NCBI GenBank assembly: GCA_001442985.1
Contig: LDYB01000025.1
Span: 62,001-126,000 of the forward strand
Source: Armatimonadetes bacterium DC
GTDB taxonomy: Bacteria; Armatimonadota; Fimbriimonadia; Fimbriimonadales; GBS-DC
Direction: 5' to 3'
DNA: 64,000 nucleotides
This document shows positions 56,021 to 60,600 of this stretch, piece after piece. Positions within the stretch are counted from its first letter, which is position 1; each line of letters starts with the position of its first letter. The position numbers were made by a program, and so were the translations under genes. The notes below the pieces were generated by a model. It had not been told where the DNA came from, searched no databases, and saw only the letters and a program-made list of their open reading frames with translations.

Positions 56021-56079
56021 GGGAACCAGGAGAGAAACGCCTCTCTTTGCACAACGCTTTTATGAAGGAGGTCAACACG

Positions 56080-56778
56080 ATGCTGAGGGTACGACAGAAC
56101 AAAGCGAGCATCGCGCTGAGGGCGCGACTGAGCGGTGTGCTGTTGATAGGATTGCTAACGCTGTTAGCATCAATCGCGCAGCCAGTGTACTGGGAAGGAA
56201 ACGGGCACTACTACGAAATTGTTCTCAGCAGCAACATAGCATGGAATAATGCTCGTATTCAGGCAGAACAGCGGACCTATCAGTGTCGTCGTGGGTATCT
56301 GGCGACGATTACCTCTCAAGCAGAGCAAGACTTTATCTGGAACCTGCTCCGCGCGAATCACAGTTGTGGTAGTGTCTCGTCGCAGTTTTACCTCGGCGGA
56401 TACGAGGACCCTGCAGGAACTGGAAACTGGTACTGGGTCACTGGGGAGCCGATGAGTTTTACTTACTGGCAGCCAGGCGAACCGAACAATCGGGGATATG
56501 AAACAGTGATTGCGCTTGGGCTTTATTGCTCAGGGCACTGGAATAATGTTCCACCCGGTGGGTCATGGGGGGCGCGTGGCTACATCGTTGAGTACGGTGA
56601 AGCCAGCGCAGGCGGCGATGTGGATCAAAATGGTTGCGTGGACGATGCCGACCTGCTTGCTGTTTTGTTCGCGTTTGGACAGAGCGGCTCTGGCTTGCCT
56701 GAAGATGTGAATTGCGACGGCACCGTGGACGACGCCGACCTGTTGACTGTGCTGTTTAACTTCGGCAGTGGGTGTTAG
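56080..56778 (+). CDS. Secreted C-type lectin-like protein with dockerin-like C-terminus
   Basis: A 232-aa protein. The signal peptide LSGVLLIGLLTLLASIAQ leads into a C-type lectin domain (about 45-175): GHYYEIVLSSNIAWNNARIQ, GYLATITSQAEQDFIWNLL and the sugar-specificity style motif WQPGEPNN. A closing YCSGHWNNVPPG follows. EPN is associated with mannose-type sugars in animal lectins (family knowledge). The tail GGDVDQNGCVDDADLL...NCDGTVDDADLLTVLFNF ends GSGC, as in the proteins at 41535 and 43192. The start is fixed by AAGGAGGT. No terminator was seen downstream. Confidence 0.88.
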   Translation: MLRVRQNKASIALRARLSGVLLIGLLTLLASIAQPVYWEGNGHYYEIVLSSNIAWNNARIQAEQRTYQCRRGYLATITSQAEQDFIWNLLRANHSCGSVSSQFYLGGYEDPAGTGNWYWVTGEPMSFTYWQPGEPNNRGYETVIALGLYCSGHWNNVPPGGSWGARGYIVEYGEASAGGDVDQNGCVDDADLLAVLFAFGQSGSGLPEDVNCDGTVDDADLLTVLFNFGSGC

Positions 56779-56920: not shown

Positions 56921-56952
56921 TTGACTCTCCACTCGACTGGAGGGTGTATACT
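56921..56952 (+). promoter_or_regulatory. MerR-type promoter/operator (20-bp spacer with dyad)
   Basis: -35 TTGACT (56921-56926) and -10 TATACT (56947-56952) are separated by a 20-bp spacer. This is the overlong spacing typical of MerR-activated promoters. Inside is the dyad ACTCTCCA (56924-56931) - ctcgac - TGGAGGGT (56938-56945), 7 of 8 symmetric. It closely resembles the general layout of ZntR/PbrR/MerR metal operators (family knowledge). The regulator's own start ATG 56962 is 9 nt after the -10. Confidence 0.8.
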
Positions 56953-56961
56953 ATCCCTACC

Positions 56962-57618
56962 ATGGAGCGACTCTGGCAGATTGGGGAGCTGGCGAAGTGT
57001 GCGGGGGTCAAGGTCTCCACCCTGCGCTATTACGACGCCTGCGGGGTGTTGCGTCCCGCGAGGCGTGCCGAGTCGGGTTATCGCCTCTATGCGCCAGAGC
57101 AGCTGGAGCAGTTGAGGTTCATTCAGCAGGCGAAGCAGTTGGGTTTGAGCCTGCGACAGGTGCGCCGCGTTTTGGAGCTGAGCGAGTCAGGCGAGCTCCC
57201 ATGCGAGCAAGTTGCGCCCCTGTTGCGCCGCATGGTCGCCCGCCTGAATGAGCGGATTGAGCTCCTGCGCCGACGGCGCGAGGCTTTGCTCCACGCGCTG
57301 AGCCTGCAGGAGCCTGAGAAAGGCTCAGCGCGCCCCTGCTGCCTGTTGTACGCCGCCATGGAATACCTGAGGAGGGAGGATACGATGGCACGCACAATTG
57401 AAGTGTTCACGGCGGGCTGTCCGCTGTGCGACGAGACGATCCAGCGAGTGAAAAACGCCGTAGCTTCCTGTGGCTGCACTGTCATCACGCGCACGCCTGA
57501 CAGCGCCGAAGCCCAGCAGTATGGCATTCGCGCAGTGCCGGCGATAGTGGTGGATGGGCAGCTGGTCTTTACGGGAGTGCCCACTCAAGAGCAAGCGAAC
57601 GCGCTTCTGACTCGCTGA
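56962..57618 (+). CDS. MerR family regulator fused to a thioredoxin-like domain
   Basis: A 218-aa protein. Residues 1-70 are a MerR HTH (WQIGELAKCAGVKVSTLRYY, GYRLYAPEQLEQLRFIQQA). A dimerisation helix to ~115 follows with Cys81 (ELPCEQVAPLL), where metal-sensing MerR proteins keep a ligand, and Cys126-Cys127 in the sensor loop. Residues ~145-218 are a thioredoxin/glutaredoxin-like domain, FTAGCPLCDETI (CPLC 153-156), Cys170 and Cys172, and cis-Pro AVPAIVVDG. It probably senses a soft metal or redox state and controls its own promoter. An in-frame internal start exists at 57385. Confidence 0.85.
   Translation: MERLWQIGELAKCAGVKVSTLRYYDACGVLRPARRAESGYRLYAPEQLEQLRFIQQAKQLGLSLRQVRRVLELSESGELPCEQVAPLLRRMVARLNERIELLRRRREALLHALSLQEPEKGSARPCCLLYAAMEYLRREDTMARTIEVFTAGCPLCDETIQRVKNAVASCGCTVITRTPDSAEAQQYGIRAVPAIVVDGQLVFTGVPTQEQANALLTR
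57385..57618 (+). CDS. Possible separately translated thioredoxin-like domain (internal start)
   Basis: Inside the MerR fusion, ATG 57385 (Met142 of the fusion) is preceded 5-6 nt upstream by a strong GGAGGGAGG (57371-57379). This would give a 77-aa free domain ARTIEVFTAGCPLCDETIQ... ending in AVPAIVVDGQLVFTGVP. The ribosome site is better than that of the MerR start, which is nearly leaderless. So one gene may make both a tethered sensor and a soluble redox protein (inference). Confidence 0.55.
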   Translation: MARTIEVFTAGCPLCDETIQRVKNAVASCGCTVITRTPDSAEAQQYGIRAVPAIVVDGQLVFTGVPTQEQANALLTR

Positions 57619-57624
57619 GAGGTT

Positions 57625-57663
57625 AGCCCCCCTCCCGAACACGGGAAGGGGGGCTGAGTTTTT
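57625..57663. terminator. Terminator between convergent MerR fusion and metalloprotease genes
   Basis: Stem AGCCCCCC-TCCCG / CGGGA-A-GGGGGGCT (57625-57637 and 57642-57655) with one bulged base, followed by TTTTT (57659-57663). It suits the plus-strand gene and its arms also serve the minus-strand gene. Confidence 0.8.
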
Positions 57664-60600
57664 ACGGCGCAGGCTGCCCAATGCCCAGAATCTCGGCGAG
57701 CGAGGGCACGCGGATTTCGGGCATGCCCAGCAGATACTGGGCGTTCAGCGCCTTGTCGATGAGGTCTATCGCTTCGGTGTAGTGGGCGCGGGTGTAGGTA
57801 TCTTTCGCGGTGGTCAGGCGTTTCGCCAGCAGACTGCGCAGCTCCCGAAGCTGATAGCGCGCCAGCATTTTGGCATCGTCGGGCACGGGCTGGTTTTTGA
57901 CAAGCATATCCACCAGCAGTTGCAGGTGATGGCGCTGGAGCTGCCGCCGCAGGGTGGGCACGCTCCCGTTACCCTTGATCGCCTCGTCCCAGATGACGCC
58001 ATAGAGGGTCTCAAACAGTTCGGCGAGGGTGAACGGGTCGTTGACCGCCTTGAACTCGTTGTTGGCGACTCGGCGCAGGGTGTCCGCCGCGAGGAGCCGA
58101 CTGAGCGTGAGCCGCTGGATGTTGCTCAGGAAGTCGCGCACGGGCGAGTCGGCAGGGATCGCCCCGCCCGAGAAGCCGTCGTAGGGGTTCGGCGCGAGTT
58201 TCTCGTAGTAGCCTTTGGGGAAGTTGAACGCCGTCGGCGCAAAGATGTAAGTCGCCAGCAGGTTCAGGGCGCGTCGCTGTTCTGCGCCGCTGAGCGGCTT
58301 GAGCGGCGGCTGGGCGTTCGGGTCGTTGGGGAAGTTGCGCCGCAGCTGGAGCGCGCCGATAAAGCGGGTGAGCTGAATTGCCGCGTTGCTATACGACGCC
58401 AGCGAGCCAAAGAACAGGCGCGTGAACTCGTAGTACGGCTCGTTCGGACGCGGGAAGCGCGTTGGCAGCAGGCGCACCAGCTCGTCGGTATCTTTCAGCA
58501 CCAGCTCCCAGTACGCCAGCGGGTCGCGGCTGAGGTCAAACCGCGTGACATACGGGTCAAAGCGGTCGGCATAATCGTCGGTCTCGAAAGCGAGTTCGGG
58601 TTCGGTATTGCGCTGGGCAATCTTTGCCAGATGCACGCGCTCCGCTTCGGGCGTTGGCGCATCGGGGAACTCGCGATAGCCGTATTCAATCGCCCAGTAG
58701 TCGTAGGGTCCAATCGTGGGGTTCCAGTAGACCGTGTTGGGAGCATGGAGCGCCATCTGGTTGAAGGGGTCATACTCCATCACGCTGGCGACGGTACCGC
58801 GCTGGCGCACTTTCTCACCGTCTTTGAGGTCTTCCAGCGTGTTCAAGCGGCTGGCGACGAAGTTGTGGCGCAGCCCCAGAATATGCCCCATCTCGTGCAT
58901 GGTTACCGAGCGGATATAGGATTTAACAAACTCGTCTTCGCTGATGCGCGTGCCGCCGCGCAGGGGCGCCAGCAGACTCGCCATAAGATACCCCTGCCAT
59001 GCGCGATGGAGCGTGTCCTGCACCATCGTGCAGATGCGTGGGTCGTGCAACAGGTGGGCATTGCATTCGCGTTGTTCTGCTTCACGGAACGCCGCCAGCG
59101 GGTCAATCCGATACAGGAACTGGGCGCGGGTGATTCGCGCCATGTTGCCGTCGATGGTGATGCTCGCGTTCAGAATCTGCCCCGTGAGCGGGTTGGCGCG
59201 GAAGAGCGCAACCGCGTAGCCGTTATCGGGGGAGGAGACCCAGCGCACGACATTGTAGCGCATGTCGGCATGGTCCCAGTCGGCGTCGTCGGGCATCTGC
59301 TTGACCACAATCGCGTCCTTGATGCCTATCTTCTCAAACGCCTTGTTCCACTCCAGAATGCCCTCGCGCACCGCGTCGCGATATTCATGAGGGATGGCGT
59401 TATCCAGCCAGAACACGATAGGCTGCTTGGGCGGCGAGAGGGGCGCGTTCGGGTCGGCTTTCTCCAGGTGCCAGCGCAAAATGTAGCGCTTCGTCTGGTC
59501 GGGCACCTCGTTGTTCATGTCCAGAAACTCGGTGGTGAAGTAGCCGACACGCGGGTCATAGTAGCGCGGGCGATAGCCGTTATCCACAGGCAGCTCCCAG
59601 AGGTTGTAGTTGACGGTTATCGGGAGACTGCGCGGGTCAGCCAGATTCGCGCCGCCCAGCAAGCCACCCAGCAGTCCAGCCAGACCGCCCCCACGCGACG
59701 GGCTACCGGTGAAGTGATACGCCGTCTGCACAAACAGGTTGTTGGGGAACACCTTGACCTGATTGTAGACGGTCTTCTCGCGGTCAATTGAGTAGTTGCC
59801 GCCCGCCGCGGCGCTCGCCAGTTGCTGAATCTGAATCAGGTCCGAGCGGAACAGGTTGGACACATCAATCAGAAACTTCTTGCCGTCTTTGTCTTTCGCC
59901 TCGATTTTGAACGCCTCCAGATAGGCGTCGGCGAAAGAGCGTTCCACCGAGCGTCCAATTGGCGTGTTCGGGTTCGCGCGGAAGCCGATATTGGGCACAA
60001 CCAGCAGAATCTGCTCGTCGCGCTTGACGAACTTGAAGAGGATGTCGCTGACAGGGCGTCCTGGCGCGAGAATAATGGACGGCAGCCCTTCGCTGACCGT
60101 CGCCTGCAGGAAGTAGAGCTTCTCCAGCTGGTCTTCGCGCACCTCGAGGTAGAGGGTGTCTTTGCCTGCCTCTTTCTTGCGGTAGAGCGTGAAGAGCCCC
60201 TCCATCTTCTCGAAGTCTTTGGTGACCTCTTCGATGGTCTTCTCCTTCTTTTTGCTCTCTTCCTTCTTCTCGGTCTGGTCGGTCTTTTGTTCAGCCTGTT
60301 CGTTCTTCGTGTCGGCGGGTTTCTGTTCGGTGGGTTGCTGGTCTACTTTGGGGGTTCCGTTCTCGCCTTCGGGGAGTGGCGAGCCCTCGATTCGCTCGAA
60401 TTCGAGCGTGGCGCTGGCAGGCGCCGAAACGCCCCCCTGACCGAACTCCATGCCCGAAACGCTCGCCTTGCCGTAGACCACATCGCCCGTGCGCACCTCT
60501 ACAAGCGCGTCTACCTCGGCGGTGAGCTTGCTGTCGCCCTCCGCTTTATACGCGCTCTGGATTCGGGCGACGCGAATCCCCTTCCATGCCTCAAAGCCTT

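Follow-up and report, generated by a model that had tools for sequence, protein, structure and literature searches.

A MerR-thioredoxin fusion gene with a strong internal ribosome-binding site, a candidate self-activated metal-response unit

A single uninterrupted open reading frame of 218 codons (positions 56962 to 57618, plus strand) encodes a 218-residue protein in which a MerR-type regulator (residues 1 to 141) is fused to a thioredoxin-like domain (residues 142 to 218). We estimate at roughly 60% the probability that this gene is a self-activated metal-response unit resembling TipAL/TipAS, in which one gene gives rise to two products and the thioredoxin is the effector. All positions refer to the window, namely, the whole stretch of 64,000 nucleotides analyzed (C25:62001-126000), taken from the 2.85-Mb draft genome G000.

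The domain assignment is based on Pfam matches that exceeded their cut-offs for MerR_1 (residues 7 to 72, E value of 3.9e-18), MerR-DNA-bind (residues 48 to 111, 1.5e-11), and Thioredoxin_3 (residues 145 to 216, 1.7e-15; PF13192, 57.3 bits versus a cut-off of 24.8). The helix-turn-helix (HTH) and the dimerization helix of the MerR family are represented by PF13411, PF00376, and PF09278, all above cut-off. The first-pass annotation, which had been made from the sequence alone, had described this HTH, helix, and thioredoxin domain as joined in one frame, which the reading frame and the domain matches bear out; Cys81, Cys126, Cys127, the C153-P-L-C156 motif, and cis-Pro193 are all located where it had placed them. 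It had further proposed to check whether a stop or a shift of frame separates the two domains and whether the same domain order occurs elsewhere. There is no interruption in 56962 to 57618, and relatives do include two-gene versions. The survey, which covered this phylum, identified 10 fused genes in 9 genomes from 6 families (G000, G009, G034, G036, G097, G025, G130 with two genes, G201, and G164); the homologue in G009 is 76% identical. That a sequencing or assembly error merged two genes is extremely improbable: the genome is a draft and the plasmid relatives are two genes, but the same fused frame is present in nine assemblies made independently of each other, of which G034 and G036 consist of a single contig each, and is thus not a local base error. 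An AlphaFold model of the fused protein had a pTM of 0.40, so that the placement of the two domains is undefined, and a structure search with the fused protein retrieved MerR-family folds only. Scanning the contigs of the genome with the single fused protein returned just two distant MerR genes. A search of a literature library for MerR-thioredoxin fusions found nothing relevant, which is weak evidence that the fusion is new to the literature. In G218 (L097:5463-6137), another protein with a MerR-type HTH, distinct from those above and about 260 amino acids long, also ends in a thioredoxin-like domain and is possibly an unrelated fusion of this kind.

Comparison with known regulators supports the earlier reading of the MerR half as a metal sensor. 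Cys81 (codon 57202 to 57204) is equivalent to Cys79 of ZntR and Cys82 of MerR; the residue that selects +2 ions is Cys79 in ZntR, Cys77 in CadR, and Cys82 in MerR (PMC9909328). The Cys126-Cys127 pair (codons 57337 to 57342) is equivalent to the last cysteine of the metal loop. In the alignment of eight fused homologues, C81, C126, C153, C156, and P193 are invariant, and the middle metal-loop cysteine of MerR and ZntR is missing from the fused protein. Metal-sensing MerR proteins are recognized by at least two of three metal-binding cysteines (PMC1526738), and Cys81 and Cys126 provide two. The metal-specific equivalog cut-offs were all missed by far, with ZntR being the nearest (88.5 versus 168 bits), followed by CadR-PbrR (79.5 versus 151), MerR (74.9 versus 151), and CueR (71.6 versus 147). 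The most likely inducer would be a divalent, thiophilic metal.

The thioredoxin part has its own ATG (Met142) and forms a reading frame of 77 amino acids (57385 to 57618, plus strand) with the motifs CPLC (residues 153 to 156) and CGC (residues 170 to 172) and cis-Pro193. It thus combines the domain match, CxxC motif, and cis-proline of the Thioredoxin_3 fold, and CPLC and the cis-proline would be compatible with oxidoreductase activity. The best NCBIfam match of the domain was the MTH895/ArsE family (TIGR00412), whose score of 51 bits is under the cut-off of 62; the domain resembles this family in size, position of the CxxC motif, and cis-proline but differs in its additional CGC thiol pair and its fusion to a regulator. 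Between G000 and G009, the thioredoxin evolves about three times more slowly than the MerR half, as judged by dN. In the fused relative of G201 (L092:5574-5804), the first cysteine of the active site is replaced by tyrosine (YPLC), and its thioredoxin may therefore not act as a dithiol redoxin.

The gene is preceded by a MerR-type promoter (56921 to 56952, plus strand) with the -35 box TTGACT (56921 to 56926) and the -10 box TATACT (56947 to 56952) separated by a 20-bp spacer; spacers of 19 to 20 bp are typical of MerR-regulated promoters (PMC1526738). Inside the spacer is an operator-like palindrome (ACTCTCCACTCGACTGGAGGGT, 56924 to 56945) in which 9 of 11 pairs match, the arrangement expected for the MerR family, and none of 2,000 shuffles gave a palindrome as good. 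It is identical to the ZntR consensus of PMC1526738 at 16 of 22 positions, and the corresponding site in G009, a perfect 22-bp palindrome, at 18 of 22. Downstream, a hairpin followed by TTTTT (57622 to 57665, plus strand; fold of -39.2 kcal/mol, z of -5.8) is a likely terminator, common to the fused gene and a convergent Met-zincin gene ending at 57662. Standard repeat and sigma-70/terminator scans, owing to the spacings and lengths they allow, did not pick up the operator, the promoter, or the hairpin. The fused gene stands alone, and a genome-wide search allowing up to 3 mismatches found no second -35/operator site, by which a wider regulon of this operator was rejected. A lone gene with a single genomic operator site means that the fused protein most likely regulates just itself. 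The upstream gene (56047 to 56778) encodes a C-type lectin-like domain, then apparently two dockerin-like repeats (DxNxDGxVDDADLL). A mer operon in this genome was also considered and rejected: no MerT was found by a search that does detect MerT in G143, G204, and G034, and the best MerA-like protein scored below the cut-off, lacks the C-terminal Cys pair, and looks like an ordinary dihydrolipoamide dehydrogenase.

Protein and promoter thus resemble the ZntR/CadR/MerR branch in (i) the HTH and dimerization helix, (ii) the cysteines at the +2-ion position and at the end of the loop, and (iii) a 20-bp-spacer promoter with a ZntR-like palindrome. The differences are the absent middle cysteine, scores far under the metal-specific cut-offs, the C-terminal thioredoxin, and a regulator that appears to control itself alone.

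An indication of a second product is found at the domain boundary, where an internal Shine-Dalgarno (SD) sequence (AGGAGGGAGG, 57370 to 57379, plus strand) lies 5 bases ahead of the thioredoxin ATG (SD and ATG together, 57370 to 57387). The anti-SD duplex at Met142 (57385) has an energy of -12.6 kcal/mol, compared to -5.2 kcal/mol for the next-best in-frame start of the gene, and ranks in the top 0.34% among all ATGs of the window. Met142 is invariant in 8 of 8 aligned fusions, and the linker ahead of it is not conserved (50% amino acid identity, dN of 0.54). In 7 of the 10 fusions the thioredoxin SD and ATG form the best in-frame start; G130a, G130b, and G097 have a weak SD at the junction, and G097 has lost any recognizable one. 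When synonymous codons were shuffled, the fraction that matched the strength of the junction SD was 0.003 for G000, 0 of 1,000 for G009, and 0.018 for G201; the test was not significant for the other 7 of the 10 fused genes. Synonymous sites of the thioredoxin are saturated between G000 and G009 (dS of ~2.7), and GAGGAGG is identical in both, AGG being otherwise a rare arginine codon in the two genes. On these comparisons, the junction SD of G000 and G009 is kept by selection. The first ATG of the fused gene has no SD and is located 9 bases downstream of the -10 box, from which we infer that the fusion is read from a near-leaderless mRNA. The strong internal ribosome-binding site suggests that the thioredoxin is produced as a free protein as well.

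Our preferred reading can be summarized as follows. The full-length product would be a MerR-family sensor with a C-terminal thioredoxin, in which a thiophilic divalent metal would be bound by Cys81 from one protomer together with Cys126, and perhaps also Cys127, from its partner. The metal-bound sensor would twist the 20-bp-spacer promoter and switch on its own gene. Translation from the first, near-leaderless ATG would give the fusion protein, and the probably stronger internal start at Met142 the free 77-residue thioredoxin, which would act as the effector by metal binding or by repair of metal-damaged thiols. The precedent is TipA of Streptomyces, where a MerR-family gene with two alternative starts encodes both TipAL, the regulator, and TipAS, the effector, which predominates (PMC7762955). 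As in TipA, a MerR-family regulator and an effector domain are combined in one gene that would be self-activated, and two start codons would yield a full-length regulator and a free effector. In contrast to TipA, the effector is a thioredoxin and not the drug-binding TipAS, the C-terminal halves are not homologous, and the presumed ligand site is the MerR loop instead of the effector domain. In the Pfam search, the fused protein had no match to the TipAS domain (PF07739) and matched Thioredoxin_3 instead; since the effector domain differs, the gene is not a member of TipA.

The distribution of fused and separate forms bears on how the fusion arose. Adjacent but separate genes were found in G039 (two pairs), G077, G031, G018, and G221, with overlaps of 4 or 17 bases or gaps of 2 to 12 bases. 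In G221, the MerR gene ends with an in-frame TGA four codons upstream of the thioredoxin ATG, which shows one route that could connect the two forms. On the tree of either half, at least five changes of the fused label are needed, although the strongly supported branches by themselves force only one or two changes between fused and separate; fusion, splitting, or both have probably occurred several times. Such an arrangement could also be passive: an ordinary overlapping two-gene operon would have lost its upstream stop, leaving a MerR part that copes with the added domain, a free thioredoxin as the working product, and a tether without function. The short distances of the separate pairs, the TGA of G221, and the poor conservation of the linker agree with this view, which we nevertheless regard as improbable because the fused state occurs in six families and has persisted between G000 and G009, the persistence of a fusion via a short linker being weak evidence of selection. 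Downstream of three MerR-thioredoxin loci, on the same strand, are similar-looking short proteins (130 to 177 amino acids) without Pfam match (L038:5747-6142, L041:6180-6668, and L043:5621-6151), which are possibly a conserved partner of these loci.

Another view, in line with the proposal of the first-pass annotation (a sensor that exchanges thiols with its metal or delivers electrons to its own cysteines), is that the fused protein alone matters: the thioredoxin would act at the sensor, exchanging metal or electrons with Cys81 and Cys126 or resetting the switch, and the internal SD would be a relic of two genes. Since no stop separates the domains, every MerR made carries a thioredoxin, and an action on the cysteines of its own sensor is for this reason possible; the recurrence of the fused state, the loss of a recognizable junction SD in G097, and the two conserved metal-loop cysteines, which would allow a third ligand to be supplied from outside the loop, are also in its favor. 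None of the tests made here supports a thioredoxin acting on its own sensor. We consider it unlikely, however, given the selection on the junction SD in G000 and G009, the many genomes in which the homologous pair works as two genes, the lack of defined docking in the structural model, and the thioredoxin of G007, which has outlived the loss of its MerR half. In G007 (L035:7048-7435), the MerR part breaks off after about 42 codons through a deletion and a frameshift, and the thioredoxin, with SD and ATG intact, is 91% identical and has a low dN. The deletion is flanked by short ATCGA repeats, and a draft-assembly artefact is a possible cause. In G004, about 650 bases, almost the whole gene, have been swapped for about 280 unrelated bases, with the promoter, the first 24 codons, and the neighbors on either side retained; the insert (L051:5788-6066) begins with TATACCAA, ends with TTGGTAT, and is like a small mobile element. 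Such natural losses fit a thioredoxin that has a start of its own.

The regulator-thioredoxin pair, as judged from the loci read, usually takes the form of two adjacent genes in metal-resistance loci, which, like the promoter and the internal SD and ATG, had gone unremarked in the earlier reading. Separate genes for the two proteins are carried by plasmids of cyanobacteria, Paraburkholderia, Burkholderia, Afipia, and Nitrobacter, with the first annotated as a regulator (heavy metal-responsive or MerR-family) and the second as a thioredoxin family protein; in the regions read, merT, merP, merF, ccdA, P-type ATPases, and merA/merB are among their neighbors. These pairs in mer-type loci encode homologous proteins and, in the split loci of the phylum and several plasmids, have the same order and a very short gap; they differ from the fusion in being separate genes, in the metal-transport genes adjoining several of them, and in the thioredoxin coming first in some plasmids. 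Other loci of the phylum place the thioredoxin beside different sensors, namely, an ArsR-type sensor together with MerT in G143 and a CsoR-type repressor in G132, and this change of sensor partners suggests that it serves the metal response as an effector instead of belonging to one sensor. In G143 (L052:424-3015), it is flanked by the ArsR-type regulator on one side and by a fusion of MerT with an HMA domain on the other; a CopZ-type zinc-binding protein and an HMA protein come after this fusion.

This small thioredoxin, on which we found no published study, is widespread, and its partners from three unrelated sensor families connect it with metal sensing. Its fused, overlapping, and separate arrangements are a natural series for the effect of tethering an effector to its own regulator. 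A further, rather improbable reading is that the gene is a minimal one-gene metal-detoxification system that evolved repeatedly, in which the free thioredoxin would be the effector and the tethered copy would strip metal from, or re-reduce, the two-cysteine site and thereby reset the switch. If two products are made, the TipA principle of a self-activated sensor and effector gene with two starts would extend from drugs to metals, and a single self-regulated gene could serve both to detect a toxic metal and to supply the protein that deals with it.
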